The notes under the pieces are model-generated. The model was not told the origin of the DNA, searched no databases, and worked only from the letters and a program-made list of their open reading frames with translations. 64,000 nucleotides of DNA from assembly GCA_021648445.1 (NCBI GenBank), contig JAKISU010000001.1, forward strand, positions 1 through 64,000, read 5' to 3'. Position numbers and translations under genes: made by a program. This DNA is from Flavobacteriaceae bacterium. GTDB lineage: Bacteria; Bacteroidota; Bacteroidia; Flavobacteriales; Flavobacteriaceae. Positions 46,035-63,287 of this stretch are shown piece by piece (within the stretch, counting starts at the first letter, position 1; each line of letters begins with the position of its first letter).

Positions 46035-49000
46035 CTATTTTTTAATTAACTTTTCTTTTACACCAGCGGCAATTATCAAAATTAATATTGAAAATATTAG
46101 TACCCATGCCCATATTGGAAAAACCGGAGTTTCACCGCTTGCATAACTGTGCAGACCTTTAGATAAATAGTAATTTACTCCAAAAAATGTCATCAATACA
46201 CTAGTAAAACCAACAACTGCGCCAATGTTAAAAACATATAGACTCTTCATTTTTGGTACCAATCTAAAGTGTAATATTATAGTATAGGTTAGTGTAATAA
46301 CCAGTGCCCATGTTTCTTTGGCGTCCCATCCCCAATATCTTCCCCATGATTCATTTGCCCATATACCACCGAGAAATGTTCCTATGGTTGCCAAAAAAAG
46401 ACCGATTGTTAAATTCATTTCATTGATATGTGTCAGTTCTTTTATGATTAGATCTATTCGTTTGGTATTCTTTGTGTTTTTAATTGTGTATAGAATTAAA
46501 TTCATTATGCCTAAAATAAATCCTAAGCCTAAAAAACCATAACTGATAGTAAGTGTTGCCACATGAATGATTAACCAATATGATTTTAAGACGGGCTGTA
46601 GATTTGTTAATTGCGGATCATAACTACTATGACTTGCTGTCATTAAAGTGAAAAATGCCAATAATGCTGTAGCAGCCAATGTAATTTTGGAATAACGTAT
46701 AAAACAGAATCCTGCCAGTAAACTTGCCCATGCAATGAGTATCAATGCTTCATAGCCATTACTCCAAGGTGCATGATCTGATAGATACCATCTTAAACCC
46801 ATACCGTAAGTATGATATATAAAAGCGAGACCTAACAATACTATAAAAAAGTTTAGTGTTAAACGCAGTATTTTACTCTTTTTGACTTCTAAATTATCAA
46901 TAAAAGTAAGTATCAATAATATGATGCTTAGTAAAGCATATACATTTTTCAGGTTAATAAATATTTTTGACTCATTATAGTGTACTTCTTTACTAACCCT
47001 TGATTTAGATGGCAATAATTCGGCAGCACTACTCTGCCTTTGCATACTTTCAATATATCCTAATATTTTATCTGCTCTTGAATAATCCCCTGATTTTGTT
47101 GCATTGAACACTTCTGTCAAATACAACCTCATTATATTTTTATAGTTTAATTTTTCTAATTGCAAATCGTCATTCAACATTTTTATAGCTCCGGTTAATG
47201 GAGTTTCTGCAAGAGGGTCGCTCCAATTGACCCATTTATTATTTGGTGAATCTTGTACAGGAAATATATTGAGTAGTTTTCCTTGAAACCCCATCATAAA
47301 AATCTCTATACGCTCATTTAGTTTAATAACTTCTTTGTCAAAAACATTCTGTTCTGATTGTTTTTTTCTAAATGCTGTTTCTGCAATTGCTTTAAGTTTA
47401 TAGGAGCCGTCTTGGTTAAAAAAATCGTTAAAAGTAGCATACTTACCTTCTAACCCGACAACAGACATTACCGCTTTTTCGCGAACATAAATTATTTTTT
47501 GCTGCTTCCAAAATTCACCATTTAAAGGCATATCCATAAATACCTGCATAGCATCCATCTTACCTCTACCGGGAATATCGAATTTATCTTTCCTTGAAAC
47601 TTTGTGTATTACATCATAAGCCAGTGTATTAACCGGTGCAAACCTACCTGCATAGGTTTGTGTAATTAAATGACCAAATTTTTCTGCATGTTCAACACTA
47701 ACAGGGTTTGGATTGACATCATGTACATGATTATGATCTATATCTTGTGAAAATATAGAGCCAACAGATAAAAATACAAAAACCAACATTACAACTACCG
47801 TTTTTCTTTTTGTACGCGTATTCCTTATCTTATGAATTAAATCTCGATATCTTGAACTTTTACTAAACAGGGTAAGTATAAAACCTAAGGTCATAAGGAA
47901 ATAACCAAAATAGGAAATCCATGTACCATAAAAATCATGATTTACAGATAATATAGTTCCTTTTTCGTCTTTATCATAAGAAGATTGAAAAAAACGATAT
48001 CCTCTATAATCTAACACATTGTTCATGAAAATTCTATGGTTTTCAACAATACCATTATTTTCATCCATTAAAGTTACTTCGCTGGCATACGATGAAGGAC
48101 TCTCTGAACCTGCATATCTTTCTAAGATAAACTCATTTAAACGCAGAGAAAAGGGGAGTTCTATTTTTTTTACGCCATAGGCAATTTCTAGATCTATACC
48201 GTCAAGCTTAACTTTCTGAAAATTATCGACATATCCCATACCTCCTAATATGGACACCTCTTGTTCTTTACCATTAAAGTTAACATCTATTAATAGCACA
48301 TCAGGACCTTTATTTTCTTCACCTCCCGGAACGTATTTTATCTTTGCATTCTTATATGTTTTTGTTAAGACAAATGCAATTCCTGACCCTTCCGGTTCAT
48401 ATAAGTACATTGGTTTAATTTCTGCGATGGAATCTTTTGCTATTTCACCTACTAGCATTTCAGGCATTTTGCTAGTTTTAATGGTTGCAGGATAGCTTAT
48501 AAATAATTTTTCATCTTTACTTATCAATTTTAAAGCATCATCTCTTTCATTATTATTATAGGCTATAGGGAAATCGTGAGTTACTTTAATATCTCCATCT
48601 TTTATGAGCAGTACATCTTTATGTCCCTCAACGCTTAAGGTTATCTCTACAATATCTATTCCGCCTTCACTACCTTCTTCATAGGTCTCTTTTGCATTTT
48701 TTATATAATCTTTATATTCAATATCTATTGTCCCTTTTTCTTTAGTATCAATACGAACATTGAATGAGTTATCAGTAATTGCTCCAAAAAGTAAAGGTCG
48801 TGAAACAGAATAATTTAGGTTGCTATCTTTTGTTTTTACAGTTAAATAGGGTTCAGAACTATACATAAAATTTGATGATTCTCCTTGGCGGATATGCATG
48901 CTTCCTTCAAAACCTATATATCTGGTAATACCTGCACCAATAATTATTATTATAAAGGCACAATGAAATAGGAATCCTGGCAATTTACCTTTTCTAAGCA

Positions 49001-49208
49001 GATGATATCTTTTAATACTTCCTATAAAATTAAGAACTAATAATAGCAATAAAAACTCAAACCATTTGGCATTGTAAATAAGTAATTTTGCGGTAACTGT
49101 ATCGTATTTGTCTTCTATAAATGTAGCGCTGGCTATGGCAATTGTAAAAATAATTAATAATACCAATGTTGTTTTTGAAGAGATAATTAGATGTATAATT
49201 TTTTTCAT
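46035..49208 (-). CDS. ccsBA: Cytochrome c biogenesis protein CcsBA fusion (ResB/ResC-like, system II)
   Basis: N-terminal ResB-like TMs; C-terminal CcsA with WANESWGRYWGWDAKETWALVITL tryptophan-rich motif. Confidence 0.94.
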   Translation of the reverse strand: MKKIIHLIISSKTTLVLLIIFTIAIASATFIEDKYDTVTAKLLIYNAKWFEFLLLLLVLNFIGSIKRYHLLRKGKLPGFLFHCAFIIIIIGAGITRYIGFEGSMHIRQGESSNFMYSSEPYLTVKTKDSNLNYSVSRPLLFGAITDNSFNVRIDTKEKGTIDIEYKDYIKNAKETYEEGSEGGIDIVEITLSVEGHKDVLLIKDGDIKVTHDFPIAYNNNERDDALKLISKDEKLFISYPATIKTSKMPEMLVGEIAKDSIAEIKPMYLYEPEGSGIAFVLTKTYKNAKIKYVPGGEENKGPDVLLIDVNFNGKEQEVSILGGMGYVDNFQKVKLDGIDLEIAYGVKKIELPFSLRLNEFILERYAGSESPSSYASEVTLMDENNGIVENHRIFMNNVLDYRGYRFFQSSYDKDEKGTILSVNHDFYGTWISYFGYFLMTLGFILTLFSKSSRYRDLIHKIRNTRTKRKTVVVMLVFVFLSVGSIFSQDIDHNHVHDVNPNPVSVEHAEKFGHLITQTYAGRFAPVNTLAYDVIHKVSRKDKFDIPGRGKMDAMQVFMDMPLNGEFWKQQKIIYVREKAVMSVVGLEGKYATFNDFFNQDGSYKLKAIAETAFRKKQSEQNVFDKEVIKLNERIEIFMMGFQGKLLNIFPVQDSPNNKWVNWSDPLAETPLTGAIKMLNDDLQLEKLNYKNIMRLYLTEVFNATKSGDYSRADKILGYIESMQRQSSAAELLPSKSRVSKEVHYNESKIFINLKNVYALLSIILLILTFIDNLEVKKSKILRLTLNFFIVLLGLAFIYHTYGMGLRWYLSDHAPWSNGYEALILIAWASLLAGFCFIRYSKITLAATALLAFFTLMTASHSSYDPQLTNLQPVLKSYWLIIHVATLTISYGFLGLGFILGIMNLILYTIKNTKNTKRIDLIIKELTHINEMNLTIGLFLATIGTFLGGIWANESWGRYWGWDAKETWALVITLTYTIILHFRLVPKMKSLYVFNIGAVVGFTSVLMTFFGVNYYLSKGLHSYASGETPVFPIWAWVLIFSILILIIAAGVKEKLIKK

Positions 49209-49359: not shown

Positions 49360-50097
49360 ATGAGAATATTTATAGGTTTAATTGTAATTATTGTCTTTAT
49401 TTCGGCTTGTCAATCAAATAAAAAATCGCAAGTTGAAAATCAATCAGATATTCATAAAGCTGTTGTTCAGAAAGTTTTACATGTAGATGAATATACGTAT
49501 TTACGTGTTTTAGAAGATACTACCGAAAAATGGCTTGCCGTTCCTTCCGTTCAAGCAAAAATTGGTGAAACGTATTATTTTAAAGAGGGTATGAAAATGT
49601 CAAATTTTGAAAGTAAAGAATTAAACAAAACTTTTGAAACTATTTATTTTATTGAAAAAATAGGTACAGAACCTAATCCTGATATAATTACCGAGACAGT
49701 AACATTGAATAATTTAAATTTATCTCAAGAGGATAAAATAAATTTAGCCAAACAAGCTACAAAACCGGTATTAGAAAAAGAAAATGTTAAAATTGAACAT
49801 GATAAAGGTATAATTACTGTTGCAGAATTATATAAAAATAAGAAAACACATGAAGGTGAAATTGTAATGATAAAAGGTAAAGTAACAAAATTTAACCCTG
49901 CAATTATGAAAAAAAATTGGATTCATCTTCAAGATGGTACTGATTATAATGGTGAATTTGATGTGACTGTAACTACAAATGATATCGTTGAAGTAGGAGA
50001 TGTTATTACCATAGAAGGGAAAGTTTCTTTAGACAAAGATTTTGGTGCAGGTTATGTTTATAAATTAATTATTGAAGATGCAGTATTGATAAAGTAA
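49360..50097 (+). CDS. Lipoprotein with C-terminal OB-fold-like domain
   Basis: VFISACQSN lipobox; EIVMIKGKVTKFNPAIMKKNWIHLQDGTDYNGEFDVTVTT; no CXXCH. Confidence 0.65.
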   Translation: MRIFIGLIVIIVFISACQSNKKSQVENQSDIHKAVVQKVLHVDEYTYLRVLEDTTEKWLAVPSVQAKIGETYYFKEGMKMSNFESKELNKTFETIYFIEKIGTEPNPDIITETVTLNNLNLSQEDKINLAKQATKPVLEKENVKIEHDKGIITVAELYKNKKTHEGEIVMIKGKVTKFNPAIMKKNWIHLQDGTDYNGEFDVTVTTNDIVEVGDVITIEGKVSLDKDFGAGYVYKLIIEDAVLIK

Positions 50098-50259: not shown

Positions 50260-50964
50260 ATGAGTATATTTAATTTTTTTTTAGCCTTAACCTTATCAAT
50301 AACTTCTTTAACTATTGGTTATTGTCAGAAATCAGCATCTACTTTTCAAAAAGTTGAAGTGTTAGAAATTCTGCAAGTAAATTCATATACGTATTTATTT
50401 GTAAAAGAGAATGATATTAAAAGATGGCTTGCAGTTCCTAGTATTAAAGCAAAAATTGGTGAAACCTATTTTTATAAAAGCGGTATGAAAATGTCTAATT
50501 TTAATAGCGAAGCATTAAATAGAACTTTTGATTCAGTTCTTTTTTTAGGGTCAATTAGTAAAACTCCTAATAAAAAAGAAAAATCATCTTTTCAGCATTC
50601 CTCAACTATTAAATTGCAAAAGACTGTAAAGCCAGCTATAGAAAAACTTATCCTTACTATAAAACCTGTTAATGATGGAATTTCTATAGCTGAATTGCTT
50701 AAAAACAAAAAAAAATACGAAAACAAGACAGTTAAAGTCAAAGGACAGGTAACAAAGTTTAGCTCCCAGATTATGAGTAAAAACTGGATTCACCTGCAAG
50801 ATGGCACTGAATTTAATGACAAGTTTGATATAATCTTAACTACGAATACTGAGGTTAAGTTAGGAGATGTTATTATTATGGAAGGCAAAGTTTCTTTAGA
50901 TAGAGATTTTGGTTATGGTTACTTTTATGACTTAATCATTGAGAATTCTGTTCTTGTAAAATAG
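50260..50964 (+). CDS. Secreted OB-fold-like paralog of the preceding gene
   Basis: Shared KVKGQVTKFSSQIMSKNWIHLQDGTEFNDKFDIILTTN and RWLAVPSIKAKIGETYFYKSGMKMSNF. Confidence 0.65.
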   Translation: MSIFNFFLALTLSITSLTIGYCQKSASTFQKVEVLEILQVNSYTYLFVKENDIKRWLAVPSIKAKIGETYFYKSGMKMSNFNSEALNRTFDSVLFLGSISKTPNKKEKSSFQHSSTIKLQKTVKPAIEKLILTIKPVNDGISIAELLKNKKKYENKTVKVKGQVTKFSSQIMSKNWIHLQDGTEFNDKFDIILTTNTEVKLGDVIIMEGKVSLDRDFGYGYFYDLIIENSVLVK

Positions 50965-51023: not shown

Positions 51024-52106
51024 TTACCTCGTGTACTTTCTTTCTTCATGACATCCTTTGCAAGACCCTCCATTTTCTAATACTTTAAATTTTAACGGCA
51101 TATTCCAACTACCAAACTTTACTGTTTCCGGTATGAGATATTTTTCATTTGTACCATGAACATTATGGCAGTTGGCACAAGTTCTACCTTTTTCTTTATT
51201 GACATGTACATAATGTAGGTTGCGATCACCATCCCTGAACTCAGTAGCATATTTTGTTTTTTCCAATAATAAAAGGTCTGTATCATGGCATCCAAAACAT
51301 AATTCATAATTTTCTTCGGTACCCGGAGCATAATTTCCTAAAGGATATGGAATAGATAACAAATATTTGTTTTCTGAAGCATGTGGGTCATGACAAGAAT
51401 TACAGCTTTTTTTAAGTGCAGGATGTACAACTTTACTCTTTTTTAGTAGTTTGTCAATATTCGTAATTTTTCTATCACCTTTTGTAAGTGTTTTGTTGTG
51501 ACAACTTAGACATAAGGTTTTCGGATTAGATACTAACATCTTTTTTTCGGGAGAGGAATGTGGGGAATGACATCCAACACAACCTCCTTCTTCTGTAGCC
51601 GGTAAATGTACAACTGCTGATTTTTTGATAGATTTTTCAAGTTTGTCATGACAGAAATAGCATAGATCCGGCGATTTTGCAAAAATTAATTTAGGGTCAT
51701 TAGAACTGTGTACTTCATGACATTCTAAACATTCTCCTTTTGAGACCGGTTTGTGTACATATTTATTTCCGATAATAGCAGGTTTTTCTTCCTCATGGCA
51801 ACTAAAACATAAACTTGCTCCTTCTTCTAAAAATACAAAACCTTCAACATCTTCTAAAGGGTGTTCTTTTCCATTTGACTTATGACAACTTGTGCAATCT
51901 ACTGCCGGACCATGAAGAATATCTTTTTTTACTGCCCTTTTATGGCAGTCAATGCATGTTTTTTCGCTTGTTGTGTTTTGACTAAAAATAGTTACTTGTA
52001 TCAACAATAAACAAGTAAGTAGAATACCATTTTGAAACACCATAATATTAAATATAAAATTTCCGGTTGTTGCTTTTTTTGTAGTTTCCATTTTATTTTG
52101 TTTCAT
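51024..52106 (-). CDS. Multiheme c-type cytochrome, 11 CXXCH
   Basis: CIDCH, CTSCH, CFSCH, CLECH, CYFCH, CVGCH, CLSCH, CNSCH, CFGCH, CANCH, CKGCH; N-terminal hydrophobic segment. Confidence 0.93.
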   Translation of the reverse strand: MKQNKMETTKKATTGNFIFNIMVFQNGILLTCLLLIQVTIFSQNTTSEKTCIDCHKRAVKKDILHGPAVDCTSCHKSNGKEHPLEDVEGFVFLEEGASLCFSCHEEEKPAIIGNKYVHKPVSKGECLECHEVHSSNDPKLIFAKSPDLCYFCHDKLEKSIKKSAVVHLPATEEGGCVGCHSPHSSPEKKMLVSNPKTLCLSCHNKTLTKGDRKITNIDKLLKKSKVVHPALKKSCNSCHDPHASENKYLLSIPYPLGNYAPGTEENYELCFGCHDTDLLLLEKTKYATEFRDGDRNLHYVHVNKEKGRTCANCHNVHGTNEKYLIPETVKFGSWNMPLKFKVLENGGSCKGCHEERKYTR

Positions 52107-52114
52107 TTATATTT

Positions 52115-54094
52115 TTAAAATTTTCTTGAAATTTGAATTGTAACCTTTTTAAAATTCATTTTTTCATTAAACAGTTCATTTTCATATAGTTCAAAACCTG
52201 CTGTAACATACAATTGGCGAAAACGAGTAGTTAATTCTAATCTTGCGGTCAACAGGTCTAGATCAATTGCTTCTCCTTCTTGTTTTCGATAAGCTGTTTC
52301 AAGACTAAGTTTTGTTTTTGGATTAAAATTATAAGAAATATTACCTGAAACACTATAGTATTTTTGTTTCAACCCTTCTTCAACGATCATATGATAATTA
52401 CGAAAATCTCCATTTAATGTGTAATATAGTTTTTCCTTTATTTTCCCTTGTAAAACTAAATAGTATCTTGTTAATCGGTAAGGTATAACAGTACTTCTAT
52501 AGTTATCATGTTCTATACCTCCGCTAATAAAATCATATCTAAAACGACTTCCATAAACATTTTTATTAAAATAATTCAATGTTAAAAAATCTACATTTAC
52601 CGGATCTATATAATCTTGTTTAGAAATATTGTAATAGAATTCTATTTTATTTTTAAACAATGATATTCTTGCGCCAAAAAAATTGTTAATAGCATTAAAT
52701 TGATATGAAAGTGGTTGTATTGCTCCATAATCAATTAAAACAGTTGCATTATTTGCAATTTGACCTCCCGGAATACGTTGAATTTCCAAAAATTCATTTC
52801 TTTCGATCAATATATAATCAAAATTCAATCTATATATAATAGTATTTGTTACATCTCTAACTATTACAGAATTAACATCAGAATATTGATTGTTCAATAA
52901 TACTATTTGACCATCAGATATGGTATGTTCTTCATTTTGAATAAATAAAGAAGCTGCTTCACTTTCTCTATTTTGTTTGTTACTGTTTATCCTGTAGGAT
53001 AAAGACAATTGTCCGTTTAAAGGAATTTTTTTTACATATCTAATATTTAAACCAGTTCTTTTAAAAGTTTCTTTATATTGAGTATTATTGATATTATTAT
53101 ATTCAAAAGATACTCTTGTACGTAAACTTTTATAAAGTTGATGTGACAATATACCTCTTGCGTTATGTTGTTTTGAATTTTGAATATCTCCTTGAATATC
53201 ATAATAATTGTAGTTACCTGCAAAATTGAATTTTTTTGGCAGTTTAAAAAATATGTTTTCTAATATCTGAAATCTTTTGAAATTAAAATCTCCACGTTGA
53301 TCTTCATTTGATATTCTTGAGTTAAAACTATAATTCTTTTTAGAGTCAAAAAACAAGTTATTATTAAGGCTCCATGAAGTAATATTGTTTTTTATGATGT
53401 TACTATTCTGATTTTGTTCAGAAAACGAAAAAGTATCTTCATAAACATATTTATTATGAGAAAAAATGAATTGATGCCAATCATTCAAGCCAAACGTTTT
53501 GGTAGCCCTGCTTTCAAAATTGTTCTGTTCGGTTATATACCTTCTATCTGTTTGTAATTCTTTTTGTTCACCTTTTCCACGATTATAAGAAATGGTAAAA
53601 GGAAGATACTCATTAGTGTATGTTAGAACACTACCCCAATTTTCAAACTTTGATCTAAGGTTGGTTAAATTCTCTCTATTGTTATAGCTTTCATTAATGT
53701 TGGTAAACACATTAAAATTAAATGAATTATGTTGAAAAAAAGAGGCTTTTGCGTATAGCTTTTTTAATGTGTTTATTTCATTACGGTCTGGTGTTACTAA
53801 AGATAGTCGTTGTCCGGTTTCAGGGCTGTAACCTGCATTAACATCTAATGATAAAAAATTAGGATGCCAGAAAAAACTATTAGAATTTAAAAAAAGACCT
53901 CCAGATATAAATGAACTTTCTAAGCGTTCATTAAAATTACTTCTATCTGTTTTCTGATCCCAATAAGAACCATTTAAATTTAATTCACCACTTAACGATG
54001 TAAGCTTCCAAAATGTAGTTTCTGTAATTGATTTTTGAGAATAACCATACATTGTAAATAGTAAAATAATATATAGTAATCTAAATTCTTTCAT
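52115..54094 (-). CDS. Large outer-membrane beta-barrel-like protein (candidate porin partner of cytochromes)
   Basis: Signal peptide, 659 aa rich in alternating aromatic/polar strands, terminal KKVTIQISRKF ending in Phe; 5-heme and 11-heme neighbours. Confidence 0.75.
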   Translation of the reverse strand: MKEFRLLYIILLFTMYGYSQKSITETTFWKLTSLSGELNLNGSYWDQKTDRSNFNERLESSFISGGLFLNSNSFFWHPNFLSLDVNAGYSPETGQRLSLVTPDRNEINTLKKLYAKASFFQHNSFNFNVFTNINESYNNRENLTNLRSKFENWGSVLTYTNEYLPFTISYNRGKGEQKELQTDRRYITEQNNFESRATKTFGLNDWHQFIFSHNKYVYEDTFSFSEQNQNSNIIKNNITSWSLNNNLFFDSKKNYSFNSRISNEDQRGDFNFKRFQILENIFFKLPKKFNFAGNYNYYDIQGDIQNSKQHNARGILSHQLYKSLRTRVSFEYNNINNTQYKETFKRTGLNIRYVKKIPLNGQLSLSYRINSNKQNRESEAASLFIQNEEHTISDGQIVLLNNQYSDVNSVIVRDVTNTIIYRLNFDYILIERNEFLEIQRIPGGQIANNATVLIDYGAIQPLSYQFNAINNFFGARISLFKNKIEFYYNISKQDYIDPVNVDFLTLNYFNKNVYGSRFRYDFISGGIEHDNYRSTVIPYRLTRYYLVLQGKIKEKLYYTLNGDFRNYHMIVEEGLKQKYYSVSGNISYNFNPKTKLSLETAYRKQEGEAIDLDLLTARLELTTRFRQLYVTAGFELYENELFNEKMNFKKVTIQISRKF

Positions 54095-54100
54095 TAGTTT

Positions 54101-54685
54101 TCACTTCATTAAAAGAAACATATCATTGTTTCCACCATGAGGGTTGTGGCAACTGGTACAATTGGTGTTTTCAATATTATCATGGTCTTTATTTGCTAAA
54201 ACCAAAGGAGTGGTATGGCAATTGAGACAAAGTTCTTGTCCAGATCGTAAGAGTAAATTTTTTAATTTAGATTGATGTGGGCTATGACATTGTGTACAGT
54301 CTCCTGATGCTACAGGTCCGTGTAAAATCTTATACGTTTTATTGTAGTCTTCGTGACATTGATTACAAAGATCTGGTAAAGGCAACCTTGGCTTGTCCAT
54401 ATCATTTCTATCATGGCACTTTGCACATTCTCTTTTTCCATAAGGAGTGTGAAGGTTAAATTCATTTCTTACAAAAGATGTCATTGAAATTCCATTGACC
54501 AAAGTGCTATCTATTGTGTATAAAGAATCTTTAATAACAGTAACTTCAACTTCATATGGATTCGGAACACCATCAAATAAAAAAGACCTTACGCTATAAC
54601 TAAATTTAGGTGTGCATGCCCAGAGTAATAATAGAGCAATGATAAATAATAAATAATTTATATGTTTATGTTTATCCTGATGCAT
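54101..54685 (-). CDS. Pentaheme cytochrome c lipoprotein
   Basis: LLLWACTP lipobox; CAKCH, CNQCH, CTQCH, CLNCH, CTSCH. Confidence 0.92.
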   Translation of the reverse strand: MHQDKHKHINYLLFIIALLLLWACTPKFSYSVRSFLFDGVPNPYEVEVTVIKDSLYTIDSTLVNGISMTSFVRNEFNLHTPYGKRECAKCHDRNDMDKPRLPLPDLCNQCHEDYNKTYKILHGPVASGDCTQCHSPHQSKLKNLLLRSGQELCLNCHTTPLVLANKDHDNIENTNCTSCHNPHGGNNDMFLLMK

Positions 54686-54807
54686 GTAATTTTTTTTAGT
54701 TTAACATGGGTCTAAACATTTTTATTTCAGAAAGACATATTGGATTTAAATGAAACTCTTAAATGCATTAATTTTAATAATTCTTATTATCCTCGTTTTT
54801 TATCGCT

Positions 54808-55902
54808 TTACTCTTTTGAATTTTCAAGTTTTCCTTTTACTGGCACAATACGTCCATAAACACTTATTTTATCAGGACCAAACTGATTAGCAACAAAAAT
54901 TAAGTATTCTAACTTAAATTTAGGATCAACATATTTTTCAAAATATTTTAAATTATCATAATCTATAATCACTTTAGTGGGTAGCCACATATCTCCTGGG
55001 CCTTTATAACTACCACCAAAAAACAATAGCAATTCTCCGTCTTTGTTAAATATTTGTACATTCTCAAAACTGGCATCTACTACATATAAATTTTCTTCAC
55101 GATCAACAGCTATTCCTTTAGGGCGTACCAGTTCACCAATGTTTTTACCATATTTTCCAACAGTACTTAAATATTCACCTTTATGGGTAAATATTTTAAC
55201 AGTACCATTCCCCATATCACTTACATAAATCTTACCTTTCAATACAAAAATATTTGTAGGTTTATATAAAAAACTATCATCTCCTTTTTCAGATTTTGGA
55301 AAATAAAACTCAAACTCATGTGTGTCTTCTTTATACACATTTACTCTATTATTACCAGAATCTGGTACATATATTTTATTTTCGTAAACAAAGACATCAG
55401 TTGGTTTAATATTTTCTTTTTTACCAAACGATGTGATATATTTACCTATACTATCAAAGATAGCTATTTTTTGTAGATTAACATCTGCAACATATAGTTG
55501 GTCATTGGTGTCAACATAGCAATTAATAGGTAATTTTAATTGATACGGTCCTGTAGGAACAAAATAATTAAATTCTTTAGTTTCAAAATCAATAATTTCA
55601 AGCCCGCCTATAGAAACATCACATACATATAGTTTACCATTACGCATAAATATTCCATAAGGTTTTCTAATTGGCATCACCTGTTTTTTTCCAACAACAG
55701 ATGTTGCAAATGCTGATTGTTTACGAGCAATATCTTGTGAACTACTAATACGAGTGAGATATTGAATTCTTGCAGTATCTGGTGGAGGCGGATAGATAAT
55801 AATTTCTTTTGTAGATTTATTATGAATACGTGGAGAACATGAAGTAAAGAGCAATAAAAAAGTTGCAATTATAAAAAATCCGAAATAAAATTTAAACTTC
55901 AT
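54808..55902 (-). CDS. NHL-repeat (6-bladed propeller) lipoprotein
   Basis: LLFTSCSPR lipobox; repeated Y-x-x-D-x-x-x-x-x-x-V-x-I-F motifs, GELVRPKGIAVDREENLYVVDASFENVQIFNKDGELL. Confidence 0.85.
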   Translation of the reverse strand: MKFKFYFGFFIIATFLLLFTSCSPRIHNKSTKEIIIYPPPPDTARIQYLTRISSSQDIARKQSAFATSVVGKKQVMPIRKPYGIFMRNGKLYVCDVSIGGLEIIDFETKEFNYFVPTGPYQLKLPINCYVDTNDQLYVADVNLQKIAIFDSIGKYITSFGKKENIKPTDVFVYENKIYVPDSGNNRVNVYKEDTHEFEFYFPKSEKGDDSFLYKPTNIFVLKGKIYVSDMGNGTVKIFTHKGEYLSTVGKYGKNIGELVRPKGIAVDREENLYVVDASFENVQIFNKDGELLLFFGGSYKGPGDMWLPTKVIIDYDNLKYFEKYVDPKFKLEYLIFVANQFGPDKISVYGRIVPVKGKLENSKE

Positions 55903-55986
55903 TTTTATTAAATTTAATACTTGTTTAGTAAAATATTTTAATACATTAATATTTAGTGAAGGTATAAGAAATCACATCACTATTCT

Positions 55987-56000
55987 ATGATTAAAATCAG
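55987..56000. promoter_or_regulatory. Crp/Fnr-like palindrome ATGAT-TAAA-ATCAG
   Basis: Upstream of NHL lipoprotein gene. Confidence 0.4.
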
Positions 56001-56047
56001 GTTTTATATTGGCTAACCTTTGTAGTGTTTAATGTAAATATTGTCAT

Positions 56048-56081
56048 AATAAAGAAGGGGCAAAATAGCCCCTTCTTTATT
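56048..56081 (-). terminator. Strong terminator downstream of tetraheme gene
   Basis: AATAAAGAAGGGGC-N6-GCCCCTTCTTTATT, perfect 14-bp stem. Confidence 0.85.
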
Positions 56082-56104
56082 AAAATTGATTTAAGTCATC
56101 TCTA

Positions 56105-56743
56105 CTACATATTATGACAAGTTAAACAAAGGGCACTACCGGCATTAGATTTAACTAGTAGATTACCAACACCAGAACCATTATGTACATCATGACAAGA
56201 AGAGCATTGCACTTTACTACCAAGTAATAAATCAGCATCAATAGTACTTCCAAGTCCTGAACTTGCTGAAGTTGGGTCGAATAAACCGCCATCAAGCGTT
56301 GCTAAAGCAGCATCATAGGTAAAAGAAACAGGGTGTTCATTACTTAGATCAATTCCAAGAAGTTCACCACCGGTCATAAACTCAGTACCTCCGGTTTGCC
56401 CGCCAAAATTGTCAATAGCTACAGTACCATCGTGACAACTTAAGCATAATTTAGAAGACCCATCCGGCTGACTTGTTGTTGCATCAAAAGATGGTGAAAC
56501 TACATTTGTGTAAAGGTCAAAGGTAGCTGTTGTTACTTCATGATTCCATAAAGGAGCTGTTAAACCGGTAACCGCTCCGTGAGGAGTATGGCAAACCTGA
56601 CAAATCTCTCCTCCCGGATTCCATGTTTCAGTTGAAAAATCGTGATCAGAACCAGCTATATTTTGCCCAAAACTTACTGTTGACATTAATACAGCTAAAC
56701 TCAAAGTTAATACTAATTTTTTTGTTTTTTTCATGAGACTCAT
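56105..56743 (-). CDS. Secreted tetraheme cytochrome c
   Basis: Signal peptide; CQVCH, CLSCH, CSSCH, CLTCH. Confidence 0.93.
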   Translation of the reverse strand: MSLMKKTKKLVLTLSLAVLMSTVSFGQNIAGSDHDFSTETWNPGGEICQVCHTPHGAVTGLTAPLWNHEVTTATFDLYTNVVSPSFDATTSQPDGSSKLCLSCHDGTVAIDNFGGQTGGTEFMTGGELLGIDLSNEHPVSFTYDAALATLDGGLFDPTSASSGLGSTIDADLLLGSKVQCSSCHDVHNGSGVGNLLVKSNAGSALCLTCHNM

Positions 56744-56816
56744 ATTTACGTTAACTAAAAAGAAGATATATTCATATATATCGGTACGAATTTAAGAACA
56801 GAATTAATATAAAAGA

Positions 56817-56830
56817 ATGATTTTTATCAT
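56817..56830. promoter_or_regulatory. Crp/Fnr-like palindrome ATGAT-TTTT-ATCAT
   Basis: About 75 bp upstream of the tetraheme gene. Confidence 0.5.
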
Positions 56831-56882
56831 GTTTGATAGTATTTGTTACAATAAATTAATATTGTCGGATAAAACGTTAAAG

Positions 56883-58583
56883 TCAATCATTCATCATATT
56901 ATTATATGAATATGGATTATGATTCTCACCATGGCATGTCAAATAACAACTACCTCTGCCTACCCCTGTATCTTCATATCTTAAAATACCACTAGATGAA
57001 GGTGTAACAATTCCGGTTCTAAAATTTATCAGATTAGAATTATTGATACTGTTACCTTGCGTACTACTAATACCGTGCGGATCATGACAAACACTACATG
57101 AAGTTCTCTCATCAACAATATGCTTTTTATGTCCGTTAAAAGTATTCGTATCACTGATAATATTATCTCTATTATGACAGCTGTAGCAAAGCTCATAATT
57201 TGCTACAGACTCAGGAGTATTATTATCAGTTGAATATTGTAACTTTAACAGTTGAGGGTAAATTGATCCATGAGGGCCAGAAGCACCTCCTGTATCGTTA
57301 CTTGCATGACAATCTGTACAGTATAGAACAGTGCTTATAGTGTTTGGAGCTATAAGATTAGCTGTAACTTCAGTATTATTCCTCGGACCTACTACCGGAT
57401 GGTAAGAAGGGTTTGAAGTATCAAATTCCAATCGTACATTATTTTGATTAATTTGCCGTGAAACGGTAGGTGCCGGAGTCCAAGAATTTCCCGCATGGCA
57501 TTTATAGCATATTTCATAAGCATATGTTACTCTACTTACCTCATTACCTGCCTGATTAATTCCGTTTACGCCTTTATTAAATCCGTTTACAAACGGAGCA
57601 GTAGCTGTAGTTGCATTTGATGCATGTGGATTGTGACAGTCTTCACATTCAACATGTTTGGTTGCAACTGAGGCTGCTTCTATAGGATCATGAACTCCTG
57701 TATATCTATATATGTCATGCTTAAAGGTTTTAGCAAAATCTGCCTGAACATTTTTTGCGGCAACATTTCCATTATGGCAATCAAGGCAATTATTTTCTTC
57801 AGGAACATATTTTAATAATCTTGGTTTGCCATTTGCATTATGTGAATCATGACAATTAGCACATGCATTTTGCGAAACAGTAGCATAAGCAGATTCAATA
57901 TGTACCCAAGGATCTGCACCTGTTCCATTCCATGTATTTATAGAAGTACTATGACTACTATTTGTCCAATACGTTCTATCATGACACGTAAAGCATAAAG
58001 CAGAATATTCATTGGAAGCCACCAAAAATTTTGGATTGGTTTCTTTATGTGGATCATGACAAGAGGTACATTGTAATTTTGAATTATTATCTAACTCGGC
58101 AACTAATAACGGAGGTGTTTTTAATTGACCGTCTGATGCAGCTAAAGCAGCATCATATCTAAATGAAATAGGATGATCGTTTGATAAATCTGTTGTAAGG
58201 TTATTCTTAGAAGTTATTCTATTACCCATTGTCATAGCTATAGATTTAGATCGACTGACCAGATCTCCTAATGCTATGGTACCATCGTGGCATGACAGGC
58301 ATAAAATTGAACTGCCATCGGGTTGTCCGGGTACAGCATCTAAGGTTGAACTATTGTATAACAAATAAGTTGTACCGGTTATTTTTTTATTCCACATAGG
58401 CGATTTAGGATTACTACTATGGGGAGTGTGACAAAATATACAAATTTCAGATTCTGTAGTAGATTTAACCATTTTTGAGCTGCTTACAGATAAATTATGT
58501 TTTGAAGTAACAATAGATTGTGAGTTTACCAAAACGGGAAACCAGATTAAAATAACTGCTATTATAATTATTATTTTTTTCAT
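56883..58583 (-). CDS. Secreted multiheme cytochrome c, 11 CXXCH plus one CX3CH
   Basis: CIFCH, CLSCH, CTSCH, CFTCH, CANCH, CLDCH, CEDCH, CYKCH, CTDCH, CYSCH, CSVCH and C-terminal CYLTCH. Confidence 0.93.
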   Translation of the reverse strand: MKKIIIIIAVILIWFPVLVNSQSIVTSKHNLSVSSSKMVKSTTESEICIFCHTPHSSNPKSPMWNKKITGTTYLLYNSSTLDAVPGQPDGSSILCLSCHDGTIALGDLVSRSKSIAMTMGNRITSKNNLTTDLSNDHPISFRYDAALAASDGQLKTPPLLVAELDNNSKLQCTSCHDPHKETNPKFLVASNEYSALCFTCHDRTYWTNSSHSTSINTWNGTGADPWVHIESAYATVSQNACANCHDSHNANGKPRLLKYVPEENNCLDCHNGNVAAKNVQADFAKTFKHDIYRYTGVHDPIEAASVATKHVECEDCHNPHASNATTATAPFVNGFNKGVNGINQAGNEVSRVTYAYEICYKCHAGNSWTPAPTVSRQINQNNVRLEFDTSNPSYHPVVGPRNNTEVTANLIAPNTISTVLYCTDCHASNDTGGASGPHGSIYPQLLKLQYSTDNNTPESVANYELCYSCHNRDNIISDTNTFNGHKKHIVDERTSCSVCHDPHGISSTQGNSINNSNLINFRTGIVTPSSSGILRYEDTGVGRGSCYLTCHGENHNPYSYNNMMND

Positions 58584-59582
58584 TTATTTCTCATTGATGA
58601 GTTGAAATATTTGAATTCTAGAATTATAACTATCTGCTATATAAATATAGTTTTTTTCATCAATATAAATACCTGAGGGCATCCAAAATTGTTCCTTACC
58701 TCTACCCTGTTCACCAAATTGGTACAAGAAATTCCCTGAAATATCAAAGACCTGAACAGTATGATATAATGCATCAGTTATATAAATATTACCAAAAGAA
58801 TCTGTAGCAATACCTTTTGGTCTGGCAAAATAACCTGTTGCATTTCCCGCCTCACCAAATATGGAAATTACTTCTCCTGTTTTATTAAATACTTGTATTC
58901 TAAAATTCATTGCATCAATAACATACACATTACCTATTTTGTCAATCCAAATTGATGTAGGGAAATTAAATTCTCCTGAAGCGACTCCTCTCTTCCCTAT
59001 TGTTTTGATTAATTCTCCTTGTTCATTTAGTACAGAAATTCTATGAGCACCAGTATCAACTACCCAAACTTCTTTTGAGATTATAGAATAAGCAATTCCG
59101 GTTGGTTGTTGTAATTTGATATTTTCATTTAATACTTCTAGTTTCTTTTGACTTTCATTTAACTTAAAAATTTTGTTTAGACGAGAATCCGTAAATAAAA
59201 TTTCGTCATTCGTAAATGAACAAAAATTAACTAAAGAATTGAAACTAACCTTATTTTTCTTTAATACTTTGGGTATCTTTTTTTTACTTTCATTTATAGT
59301 AAAGATTGTACCAACTCCTTGATCTAAAATATAAAAGGAATCAGGATTTATTGCAATGATATCAATAGGTTTGATTATTTTAAAGGTATTCTTTTTACCA
59401 AAGATAAATTTAGCAAACCAACCTTTTTTTGAAACCTCTTTTTGCCCTTTGAATAAGGGAAATTGACTTACCCATTGAACCTTAAAAGTTTTAAAAGATT
59501 GCTCTTTATCTATGTTTATAATTTTTTGCGCTTCTCCTCTAACAAAAAGGAAAAGAAAAAAAACACCAATTAGTAACTTCAT
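58584..59582 (-). CDS. Secreted NHL-repeat propeller protein
   Basis: GEFNFPTSIWIDKIGNVYVIDAMNFRIQVFNKTGEVISIFGEAGNATGYFARPKGIATDSFGNIYITDALYHTVQVF. Confidence 0.9.
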   Translation of the reverse strand: MKLLIGVFFLFLFVRGEAQKIINIDKEQSFKTFKVQWVSQFPLFKGQKEVSKKGWFAKFIFGKKNTFKIIKPIDIIAINPDSFYILDQGVGTIFTINESKKKIPKVLKKNKVSFNSLVNFCSFTNDEILFTDSRLNKIFKLNESQKKLEVLNENIKLQQPTGIAYSIISKEVWVVDTGAHRISVLNEQGELIKTIGKRGVASGEFNFPTSIWIDKIGNVYVIDAMNFRIQVFNKTGEVISIFGEAGNATGYFARPKGIATDSFGNIYITDALYHTVQVFDISGNFLYQFGEQGRGKEQFWMPSGIYIDEKNYIYIADSYNSRIQIFQLINEK

Positions 59583-59747: not shown

Positions 59748-60155
59748 CTATTCTTCTAAAGTTCTCATATAATTTACAATCAACCATCTATCTTCATCGC
59801 TAGAAACTTTTTTTTCAAATTTAGGCATGTCATCTCTGCCTTTAGTAACTTTATAAAATAATTCACCATCTGTTTGTACTTGAAATTCTGCAGAAGAAAA
59901 ATCGCCTAAATCGCCTTCTTGTTCATCTGCTTTCGGACCATCGCCAAAGCCTTCTTTACCATGACATGACTTACAATGCTTGTTGTATAATGATTTACCA
60001 ATTGCCTTATTTTCACCATCATTGGCATTTGTTGGATTTTTCATTGTTTTATACTCTTCTGGCACCACCCATTCATCTTGTGTAACAGCATTAAACGAAT
60101 ACAGTGTAAAAATAGCCAGACCTAATAATTGTAATACAATTTTAATTTTTTTCAT
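59748..60155 (-). CDS. Monoheme cytochrome c
   Basis: SLYNKHCKSCHGKEGFGDGPKA...WLIVNYMRTL class I cyt c. Confidence 0.9.
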   Translation of the reverse strand: MKKIKIVLQLLGLAIFTLYSFNAVTQDEWVVPEEYKTMKNPTNANDGENKAIGKSLYNKHCKSCHGKEGFGDGPKADEQEGDLGDFSSAEFQVQTDGELFYKVTKGRDDMPKFEKKVSSDEDRWLIVNYMRTLEE

Positions 60156-60158
60156 AAT

Positions 60159-61019
60159 TTATAAATTTTTGTGTTTAGAAATTCTAAAAAGGTTAAATAA
60201 TAAAATGAACAAATATGCCCAGACGCCAACTATTATTAAATTGGGCACAATTAGTAAAAATTTTGGCGTTTTATTTGGTGGAGACCACATAGTACGTTGA
60301 TCAAAAGTTGATAAATCTTTAATTGGTTCTCCAATATCTGTAAGTATGAATGTTTTTATTGTTCCGTAATCATCACTGTCTTCCAGTATAACTTCATAAT
60401 TCAATTTTCCATTCAAACCCGGCATTTTTTCTGTAATTGGCACATTAATCATGCCTTTTTCATTGGTAAAATAAACCTCTTTACCAATAGTAAGTGGAGC
60501 GAAGAAACGTTGTAAATTTACTTTTAATTCAGCATTTTCTATTGGAGTATCACCAGTATCTGTCAATTGAGCTACAATCACAGGTTCTTCGTTTTCAAAT
60601 TTTACTTCAGCTCTTAAATTTGCTAATTTAACAGTAGTACTTTTGGAGATTTTTTTAAAATTTGAGGATTCTTTATGAATAACTCTAAAAGTATATTGGT
60701 CTCGATTATCTTCAAATACTTTAGATAAATTAAATTCTCCTAACCCTTTTTTATTTAATGTTATGTCTCCTAAATAAACAAGGCTGTCATTTTCAAACTC
60801 GTTATAGATTTTAAAATCTAAACCTGCAGCTGGTTTATATTTTTTACCTTCTTTAAACTTCGCTGCAACCTTCAGGAATTTCAAATCATCTATTTTATTA
60901 AATTGTACTGAAACTCTGGCTTTTTGTTTTTTTGATTGTGCATTAATAGCAGCTATTGATAATACTATCAAAGTAAAACAAATAAAAACTAATAATTTAC
61001 TTCTTTTATTCCTCATCAT
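60159..61019 (-). CDS. Membrane-anchored Ig-like protein of unknown function in the NrfD operon
   Basis: N-terminal signal, beta-rich domain, C-terminal TM FLLIVPNLIIVGVWAYLFILLFNLF. Confidence 0.6.
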   Translation of the reverse strand: MMRNKRSKLLVFICFTLIVLSIAAINAQSKKQKARVSVQFNKIDDLKFLKVAAKFKEGKKYKPAAGLDFKIYNEFENDSLVYLGDITLNKKGLGEFNLSKVFEDNRDQYTFRVIHKESSNFKKISKSTTVKLANLRAEVKFENEEPVIVAQLTDTGDTPIENAELKVNLQRFFAPLTIGKEVYFTNEKGMINVPITEKMPGLNGKLNYEVILEDSDDYGTIKTFILTDIGEPIKDLSTFDQRTMWSPPNKTPKFLLIVPNLIIVGVWAYLFILLFNLFRISKHKNL

Positions 61020-62325
61020 TATCGGTATTTAAGGATTCTACTATATTATTTTCTTCAGCAGTTTCGTGGATTGGAATAATTGGCAGATATCTTACCAATA
61101 GTGTTACAATAAGGAGTGCTCCTGCCAAAGTACCCCAAGTAATTAACCATTCAAGATATGTTGGGTTATAGTGATGCCATGATTCAGGTACACCTTGAAT
61201 AGGTAAAAACGGATGTAATAATGTTGGTATGACTATAATGAACCGTTTCCACCAAGCAGCTATAACAACCACCAAAGCAATAATAAATAATGGTAATGGC
61301 TTACGCATTCTTTTGAATAATAAGGCAATGACCGGTAATACCAATCCGCCGATAATTACTGACCAAAATAACAATGCATCATGTCCAAAAAATAATTCTT
61401 TTAAGTGTTCTGCCTCTTTTTCTGTTGTTTTATAAGCTGGTACTAAATACTCATTTACATTAAAGTATATATAAATTAAGCATAACATTACTAAAAGTTT
61501 ACCCATCATATCAAAATGAAAATCTGTGATATAATCTTTCAGACGGTGGGTTTTTCTTAAGATGTACATTAAACTAATTACACCTCCTGCTCCTGCAACA
61601 AAAGCTCCTGCAATAAAATAAGGTCCAAAATTAGAGCTGTCCCATCCCGGTCTATACGTTGTTGCAAATAACCATGCCGTTACTGTATGAATACCAAAGG
61701 CAACGGGAATAATTAAAACAGATAATGTGTTTATAGACCACTTGTAAATATTTTTCTGTTTGGTATTTCCGTTCCAATTTAAAGAAAGTCTTCCATACCA
61801 TTTTGCAAGTATTTTATTATCTTTAAATTTCCTTCTTAAAATTTGAAAATCTGGCAATAAAGGGAAATAAAGAAGTAAAATGCTAATAACCAGATAAGTA
61901 GTAATGACTATTACGTCCCAAATTATAGGGGATTGTAACCTGCCATGTAAAAGGAGATTATAAATTCTATCTGGTCTCCCCATATCTATAATAATCGTTA
62001 AACCAGCCATGATTATTGCAGCTATGGCTATAATCTCTGAAATTCTAGTTAAGGGTGTAGCCCATTTAACTCCTGATAGCCTTAAAATAGCTGTAACCAG
62101 TGATCCAACCAAACTAATAGCTACAAAAAATACAAAGTTAGAAATATAGATACCCCAAAGGGCATAATCGCGCATATCAGTAATTACCAATCCTTCTTTA
62201 ATTTGGATAATATAAGCATAGATTGCGGCAATAATAGTTACAATTAATAATGCTACCCATATTTTTCCATAAATATTGAATTTTTTAGGAGCTAGATCCT
62301 TTGTTAATTGGTCAAAAGTTTTCAT
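61006..62325 (-). CDS. NrfD/PsrC-family quinone-interacting membrane subunit
   Basis: 439 aa, about 8-10 predicted TMs; MGRPDRIYNLLLHGRLQSPIIWDV motif typical of NrfD/PsrC. Confidence 0.9.
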   Translation of the reverse strand: MKTFDQLTKDLAPKKFNIYGKIWVALLIVTIIAAIYAYIIQIKEGLVITDMRDYALWGIYISNFVFFVAISLVGSLVTAILRLSGVKWATPLTRISEIIAIAAIIMAGLTIIIDMGRPDRIYNLLLHGRLQSPIIWDVIVITTYLVISILLLYFPLLPDFQILRRKFKDNKILAKWYGRLSLNWNGNTKQKNIYKWSINTLSVLIIPVAFGIHTVTAWLFATTYRPGWDSSNFGPYFIAGAFVAGAGGVISLMYILRKTHRLKDYITDFHFDMMGKLLVMLCLIYIYFNVNEYLVPAYKTTEKEAEHLKELFFGHDALLFWSVIIGGLVLPVIALLFKRMRKPLPLFIIALVVVIAAWWKRFIIVIPTLLHPFLPIQGVPESWHHYNPTYLEWLITWGTLAGALLIVTLLVRYLPIIPIHETAEENNIVESLNTDNDEE

Positions 62326-62327
62326 GG

Positions 62328-63287
62328 TTATTTGTTTTTTTCAACAGATTGAAATTCGGTATAGTATTTAAATCCTTCTTCAAAATTTTGCTGTCTGTTT
62401 TTAGGTGGCAAATAATATACACTTGGCATGGTTCCAAGATCTTCCATCAATCTATAACCCGCCTTATCTTCTAATAATTTACTTAGTTGAAAGGTTTCGT
62501 CACCATTGGTAACGGTATCTTCATATAAATCTCCAAAGAAATAAACGCCGTTAGGGCATGCTGAAACACAATGAGGTAATAGCTTTTGATCAATCATGTG
62601 TGGGCAGAAATCACATTTATCAACAGTTCCTTTAGTGCTTGGATTACCTGTATAATCTGGTGTGTATCCGGTATTATGATTCATCTGGTCTTCATGTTCC
62701 ATGACCATATTTGATTTAATTTCATCTTGTTCTGGTTCGCTCCAGTTAAAAACCCTTACAGAATACGGACAAGCTGCCATACAAAACCGGCAGCCAATAC
62801 AGCGGTTGGCATCTATAGAAACTATACCATCTCTGCGTTTAAAAGTAGCATCAACCGGACAAACTTTAACACAGGGCGGCTTATCACAATGCTGACAAAG
62901 GTTAGGCATCCAGTAAGGTGCAGTTTCTTCAGAATCTTGCATCTTATAAATTTTAAGCCATGCATTGTCACCTGAAATAAAATGATTTTTGTTACAAGAT
63001 TTAACACATTGTTTAGCATTTTTACAACGTGCTAAGTCTATAACCATAACAAATTTTTTGTTTGGATACCCCTCTCTAACATTATAGTCATCATCTTTTA
63101 AGCTAGAGTTTTCCTCAACTTTAGTAACGGGTACTTTTATCAAATTCCCATTGGTATCCATAAGCTCAACCATCTCTTCTTCTTCCAATGATTTTGCTAT
63201 TGCAACACCTCCTATAGCAGTAAGCAATCCGAGTTTTAATCCATTATTTAAAAACTTTCGTCGTGAATTTTTATCATTTGATTCCAT
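62328..63287 (-). CDS. Tat-secreted 4x[4Fe-4S] ferredoxin-type subunit (NrfC/HybA-like)
   Basis: SRRKFLNNGLKLGL Tat motif; 16 Cys in CKNAKQCVKSC, CQHCDKPPCVKVCP, CIGCRFCMAACP, CDFCPHM...CVSACP. Confidence 0.93.
   Translation of the reverse strand: MESNDKNSRRKFLNNGLKLGLLTAIGGVAIAKSLEEEEMVELMDTNGNLIKVPVTKVEENSSLKDDDYNVREGYPNKKFVMVIDLARCKNAKQCVKSCNKNHFISGDNAWLKIYKMQDSEETAPYWMPNLCQHCDKPPCVKVCPVDATFKRRDGIVSIDANRCIGCRFCMAACPYSVRVFNWSEPEQDEIKSNMVMEHEDQMNHNTGYTPDYTGNPSTKGTVDKCDFCPHMIDQKLLPHCVSACPNGVYFFGDLYEDTVTNGDETFQLSKLLEDKAGYRLMEDLGTMPSVYYLPPKNRQQNFEEGFKYYTEFQSVEKNK

Follow-up and report, generated by a model that had tools for sequence, protein, structure and literature searches.

A candidate outward electron transfer cluster combining a non-MtrB barrel with OmcE-like cytochromes in a flavobacterial genome

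Three adjacent genes at the end of a longer module

Can three adjacent genes of a flavobacterium, encoding a beta-barrel and the two multiheme cytochromes that flank it, account for the passage of electrons across the outer membrane, and what do the neighboring genes contribute? The genes lie on the minus strand of a 64,000-nucleotide stretch of DNA (the window) from contig JAKISU010000001.1 of a Flavobacteriaceae bacterium (GCA_021648445.1). In reading order they encode a 194-aa pentaheme lipoprotein cytochrome (MHC5; 54101..54685), a predicted 659-aa outer-membrane beta-barrel (OMP; 52115..54094) and a 360-aa undecaheme cytochrome (MHC11, also called C2; 51024..52106), with intergenic gaps of 6 nt (54095-54100) and 8 nt (52107-52114). 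A preliminary description of the window had presented them as a near-contiguous unit of a 5-heme lipoprotein, a barrel and an 11-heme cytochrome at 51024-54685, and its particulars hold. MHC5 contains 5 CXXCH motifs and MHC11 contains 11, far above chance since 2000 shuffles of the residues gave means of 0.035 and 0.087 (maxima 1 and 2), respectively. The lipobox of MHC5 is genuine, though it reads LLLLWA|C with tryptophan at position -2, and its cysteine is invariant in a seven-member alignment. The barrel has the expected cleavable-looking signal peptide (MYGYSQ) and ends in RKF; all of 15 orthologs keep the terminal phenylalanine, and in one of them a short tail follows it. The barrel contains no CXXCH, as had been noted, and indeed no cysteine at all.

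The portrayal of the trio as a free-standing unit proved incomplete: the three genes do form a group, but synteny places them at the 3' end of a conserved seven-gene module (51024-59582) in the order NHL2, c566, c212, NHL1, MHC5, barrel, MHC11. Judged by sequence features, which also supply the localizations, the trio and its orthologous loci fit the functional class of porin-cytochrome conduits, in which a porin-like protein is joined by two multiheme cytochromes, one periplasmic and one of the outer membrane (PMC4245776). The original reading as a transmembrane electron conduit is supported, but it was drawn too narrowly in omitting the larger OmcE-type cluster.

A beta-barrel outside the MtrB sequence family

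The barrel was modeled by AF2 from an alignment of 15 sequences (pLDDT 83.9, pTM 0.68). The strand count that had been proposed as a check gave approximately 30, with 30 strands of at least 10 residues, which begin at residue 29 with no plug domain before them; a small inserted domain (residues ~393-449) carries a conserved RIPGG motif. When the model was compared to the PDB with Foldseek, the first match was MtrB of the Mtr complex (6r2q_B, E = 1.8e-9), at a TM-score of only 0.46. Among the matches listed, TonB and SusC receptors ranked lower (TM at most 0.38, some with comparable E-values), as did the type 9 translocon (TM 0.35-0.37). Identity as a TonB receptor or adhesin, which had been named as one outcome that would overturn the conduit, was rejected on the AF2 model, the fold search and the family searches, the model being without a plug, the sequence having no Pfam match and the best fold match in the PDB being MtrB. 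A viral fold search returned nothing useful, and the plant leucine-rich extensin-like proteins that phmmer matched to the barrel were attributed to chance or composition.

The preliminary description had likened the barrel to MtrB-type porins for its lack of CXXCH; a wider likeness is suggestive at the level of fold and absent at the level of sequence. The barrel sequence matched no Pfam family and no solved porin; neither it nor any of the 15 aligned members matched the MtrB/PioB model TIGR03509; and hhalign gave a probability of 0.2% against an MtrB-like protein of the same phylum. Membership of the MtrB family by sequence was ruled out by TIGR03509, the sequence search of the PDB and hhalign. 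By these comparisons the barrel is a family separate from MtrB/PioB and the solved porins, and the model suggests that its mode of action is probably that of an MtrB-type porin, without membership of that sequence family. The missing homology to the MtrB family and the TM-score of 0.46 to MtrB are points against a conduit. A lead only is provided by the GSU2204 family (NF041027), which is the partner of the GSU2203 decaheme family: one relative of the barrel matches it over ~68 C-terminal residues with 19 bits, against a cut-off of 350.

Multiheme cytochromes of the trio

Orthologs of MHC5 have exactly 5 conserved histidines outside the 5 CXXCH motifs, and orthologs of MHC11 have exactly 11 beside the 11 motifs, of which 10 are invariant and one is conserved at 93%. 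In both proteins, the number of conserved distal histidines equals the number of hemes, which is the pattern expected if all hemes have bis-histidine ligation. MHC5 matches the doubled-CXXCH family PF09699 (E = 1.4e-25), and its counterparts in some relatives have 9 hemes instead of 5. No acidic surface-export motif was seen after the lipidated cysteine of this copy of MHC5, an observation counted against the conduit. MHC11 orthologs have 9-20 hemes, and several of 580-690 aa end in an OmpA domain (PF00691). The OmpA domain binds peptidoglycan in known proteins, which argues for a periplasmic location of MHC11. The best PDB match of an MHC11 profile was chain 6r2q_A (E = 6e-21) of the Mtr complex (PMC9473688); the entry file gives this chain another molecule name, yet its length fits MtrA. 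Scores against the DmsE/MtrA decaheme family (TIGR03508, cut-off 192) stayed below the cut-off, at 90 bits for MHC11 and 51 bits for MHC5. The AF2 model of MHC11 was unusable (pLDDT 43.6).

OmcE-like cytochromes and NHL-repeat proteins

On the same strand, upstream of the trio, follow NHL1, c212, c566, NHL2, a monoheme cytochrome c, p286, an NrfD-type protein and an iron-sulfur protein. The tetraheme cytochrome c212 (56105..56743) aligns over nearly its full length with OmcE (7tfs_A, E = 1.7e-20) and with a second solved multiheme cytochrome (9yuq_N, E = 3.5e-26), and a family profile built from 18 relatives reaches E = 2.5e-43 and 6.8e-43. It shows full-length homology, four CXXCH motifs and four distal histidines, as members of the OmcE family do, and its N-terminal histidine (H34) is invariant in the 18 relatives. 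On this sequence evidence c212 is related over almost its whole length to the Geobacter filament cytochrome OmcE, and is a putative filament subunit. Its phmmer matches to WD-40 designs were taken as due to chance or composition.

The 566-aa cytochrome c566 (56883..58583) combines an OmcE-like N-terminal domain (residues ~1-203) with a heme-rich C-terminal part, and contains 11 CXXCH motifs plus one invariant CX3CH. Residues 11-202 match 7tfs_A (E = 6.2e-32), and by hhalign the protein matches the c212 family with a probability of 100 (E = 9e-56). The NHL-repeat beta-propellers keep their positions in other loci; one is a 364-aa lipoprotein (NHL1, 54808..55902; PF01436 E = 1e-11, PF17170 E = 1.9e-11) and the other is a 332-aa secreted protein (NHL2, 58584..59582; PF01436 E = 5e-24).

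Putative quinone-side module and heme attachment

Beyond NHL2, the minus strand encodes the monoheme cytochrome c of a predicted inner-membrane module (59748..60155; PF13442 E = 7.8e-13), the secreted protein p286 with one C-terminal membrane anchor (60159..61019), which is kept beside NrfD in relatives, an NrfD-type membrane subunit of a putative quinol dehydrogenase (61006..62325; PF03916 E = 5.9e-32), and a TAT-exported iron-sulfur protein of the DsrO/NrfC kind (62328..63287; DsrO E = 1.3e-56 and NrfC E = 1.3e-34, both under the cut-off). In sequence this set resembles NrfCD-type quinol dehydrogenases. Orthologs of the NrfD protein with 56-85% identity occur in flavobacterial carriers of the cluster and in one related metagenome-assembled genome (MAG), and the family survey found them in 4 of 5 carriers versus 16 of 296 non-carriers (Fisher p = 7e-5). 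The module is enriched with the cluster, yet its presence in those 16 genomes weakens the case for it as a dedicated partner, and its occurrence in cluster-free genomes was also counted against the conduit.

On the other side of the trio, two plus-strand genes encode an OB-fold-like accessory lipoprotein (49360..50097), kept at the same place in flavobacterial clusters, and its paralog (50260..50964), likewise accessory. Next to these, a fused ResB-CcsA cytochrome c synthetase of system II (46035..49208, minus strand; PF01578 E = 1.1e-36, PF05140 E = 8.3e-20) is conserved beside the cluster. Heme-attachment genes adjoin the cluster in many relatives, as ResB-CcsA in flavobacteria and as a CcmF-like lyase in Ignavibacteria. 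All 11 doubled-CXXCH matches in the draft genome, which is 85% complete, fall within the cluster.

Conservation and distribution of the module

The order of the module recurs in Ignavibacteria, other Flavobacteriaceae and related MAGs. A survey of 396 Bacteroidota genomes yielded one further full-length barrel ortholog, 31% identical, in a different family and with the same neighbors; another match (L004) was rejected as a TonB receptor by its own sequence. A search of the order to which that ortholog's genome belongs found six genomes with a match. Five of these contain six loci in which the order NHL1-MHC5-OMP-C2 is the same, with c212-like and mostly also c566-like genes in front. A scan of named genomes found 14 loci titled Ignavibacteria, Kapaibacterium, Chlorobiota, Flavobacteriaceae, Bacteroidales, Bacteroidetes and KSB1, a set that overlaps the earlier one in that several are the same genomes. 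All seven genes are present in 10 of the 14; in the rest, contig ends truncate the module or it is split. One locus, L031, deviates in gene order. The search for orthologous triplets that had been suggested as a check thus succeeded: the order of the trio is retained in L012-L017, which are six loci from five other genomes of Bacteroidota, and in almost all 14 named loci. Barrel identities in a seven-locus comparison are mostly 26-37%. Correlations of evolutionary distance between the genes (r = 0.56-0.95) are values that shared species history alone could yield, and so are not evidence.

Within the family to which the window belongs, orthologs of the barrel and of c566 occur in the same 5 of 301 genomes and never one without the other, and a sampled genome of the same genus has neither. 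The distribution is therefore patchy, and the module appears to come and go as a single block.

Proposed pathway of electrons and alternatives

The trio is likely to be a porin-cytochrome conduit of a non-MtrB barrel family and to form one step of a pathway for outward (extracellular) electron transfer that a single cluster encodes. Menaquinol would be oxidized by the NrfD/iron-sulfur module (61006-63287), and the electrons would pass through the monoheme cytochrome c to MHC11, as a periplasmic multiheme wire, and to the lipoprotein MHC5. The barrel may hold MHC11, MHC5 or both, so that a chain of hemes would cross the outer membrane. Outside the cell, c566 and c212, the latter polymerized in the manner of OmcE, could pass electrons to an external acceptor, such as a mineral or a partner cell. 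Assembly or docking is the probable role of the NHL propellers. A more specific version, which is put forward tentatively and may well be wrong, makes c566 a dedicated coupler, whose OmcE-like N-terminal domain would attach to one end of a filament of c212 and whose heme-rich C-terminal part would dock on the barrel conduit; the cluster would then specify the entire circuit from quinone to filament, including a defined base for the filament, in a phylum from which little of the kind is known.

The same barrel might instead be a secretion pore that exports the extracellular cytochromes c212 and c566, or else the lipoproteins, with electrons leaving by another route. To our knowledge, the route by which OmcE-type cytochromes exit the cell is not settled, which counts in favor of such a pore, as does the presence of the barrel exactly where c566 is present. 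A barrel of ~30 strands would also be larger than the 26 strands reported for models of PioB and MtoB (PMC10654088). We nevertheless regard a secretion pore as unlikely: two cytochromes flank the barrel at distances of 6 and 8 nt and accompany it in other loci, MtrB is the top fold match with the type 9 translocon below it, and the barrel has neither a plug nor a periplasmic chaperone domain. It is less probable still that an ordinary transporter or receptor has come to lie between cytochrome genes by chance, as the barrel's lack of a family assignment by sequence and the many TonB receptors among its Foldseek matches might suggest, since the gene order has been kept while barrel identities have fallen mostly to 26-37%, and since the plug domain is absent and MtrB heads the list.

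Even if the trio is a conduit, its architecture is neutral with respect to direction, and electrons donated by Fe(II), metallic iron or a partner cell could run inward to respiration. In favor of this, reading of the ORFs assigns to the genome a cytochrome oxidase region and an alternative complex III (L052); however, the adjoining NrfD and NrfC/DsrO-like proteins resemble quinol-oxidizing modules that feed multiheme cytochromes, and no dedicated uptake enzyme was seen, so that inward flow is judged improbable.

Outward flow through the conduit would bear on the open question of how cytochrome filaments obtain electrons from an outer-membrane conduit. Genetic work on Geobacter is confused by the overlap of multiple filaments and multiple conduits. 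The cluster suggests that some flavobacteria and their relatives may own a compact outward electron pathway with a relative of OmcE, and as the draft genome shows one doubled-CXXCH cluster, with one barrel, one OmcE-like protein and one conserved protein with an OmcE-like domain, the link between filament and conduit could be tested by deleting genes one at a time in a culturable relative. Since the usual porin models miss this barrel family, surveys of outward electron transfer in Bacteroidota, including Flavobacteriaceae, would overlook the cluster.

Comparison with known systems

In the open-access literature, no description was found of this barrel together with an OmcE-type cluster in Bacteroidota, a scope that leaves out most subscription papers and does not establish priority. 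By analogy, the closest systems in function would be MtrCAB, the Pcc conduits, and OetABI with its OmcX/OmcS-like filaments. On the quinone side, the putative dehydrogenase shares with NrfCD an NrfD membrane protein and a TAT-exported iron-sulfur partner beside multiheme cytochromes, but it scores under the curated NrfC cut-off and has p286 and a monoheme cytochrome c in addition. The putative filament subunit c212 aligns almost end to end with OmcE of Geobacter (PDB 7tfs), including the four CXXCH motifs and four distal histidines, whereas the window adds in c566 a further, larger protein whose N-terminal domain is OmcE-like. In OetABI with OmcX/OmcS of syntrophic sulfate reducers (PMC10553843), conduit genes likewise adjoin genes of filament-type cytochromes, but the filaments are of the OmcS type and the organisms are Desulfobacterota, whereas the cluster of the window is of the OmcE type. 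MtrCAB of Shewanella (PDB 6r2q) similarly combines a barrel with a multiheme wire, its MtrB coming first in the fold search and its MtrA chain first for the MHC11 profile; the barrel of the window differs in being unrelated in sequence, free of cysteine and predicted to have ~30 strands rather than 26, and a small lipoprotein of 5 or 9 hemes stands where MtrCAB has the decaheme MtrC. In gene content the trio is like the Pcc (OmbB-OmaB-OmcB) conduits of Geobacter and Ignavibacterium (PMC4245776, PMC7399161), with a porin-like protein and two multiheme cytochromes, one of them a lipoprotein. Ignavibacteria already have OmbB- and MtrB-like conduits (PMC7399161); what the module described here adds to the Pcc plan is its OmcE-like and NHL genes.

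Genes of and around the cluster

The insertion in the predicted outer-membrane β-barrel protein (residues ~385-464; window ~52700-52940, minus strand) is well conserved and is perhaps a small β domain; among its relatives it is weakly similar to the phage tail-tube family NF052337 (E values of 0.002-0.009), and a second weak match is phrog_18315 (E value of 0.0044). Beside the cluster, tandem paralogs encoding secreted OB-fold-like proteins (paralog 1, 49360-50097; paralog 2, 50260-50964; both plus strand) are convergent with it in the window, and several flavobacterial clusters likewise have this pair between the multiheme cytochrome gene C2 and the fused cytochrome c synthetase gene ResB-CcsA.

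Sister Flavobacteriaceae genomes (L071:11625-18789, L073:3432-11049, L075:10800-18594) encode a cytochrome of 1549-1632 aa with 12-25 CXXCH motifs and an NHL-like protein of 836-965 aa, which in two of these genomes adjoin the cluster; neither was seen within the window. A second protein resembling the Geobacter filament cytochrome OmcE, with a fifth CXXCH motif, is encoded at L021:5999-6670 and L027:10210-10878, downstream of the 13- and 20-heme C2 genes. The record title of L026, "Chlorobiota", looks wrong: L026 genes share 62-85% identity with the flavobacterial window, and a genome from the window's family, Flavobacteriaceae, matches the L026 contig.

The L076 genome, which belongs to the order containing the Ignavibacteria-type carriers of the cluster, encodes an MtrAB-like pair (L076:456-3939) consisting of a multiheme cytochrome and an 847-aa MtrB-like porin, the latter unrelated in sequence to the window barrel.
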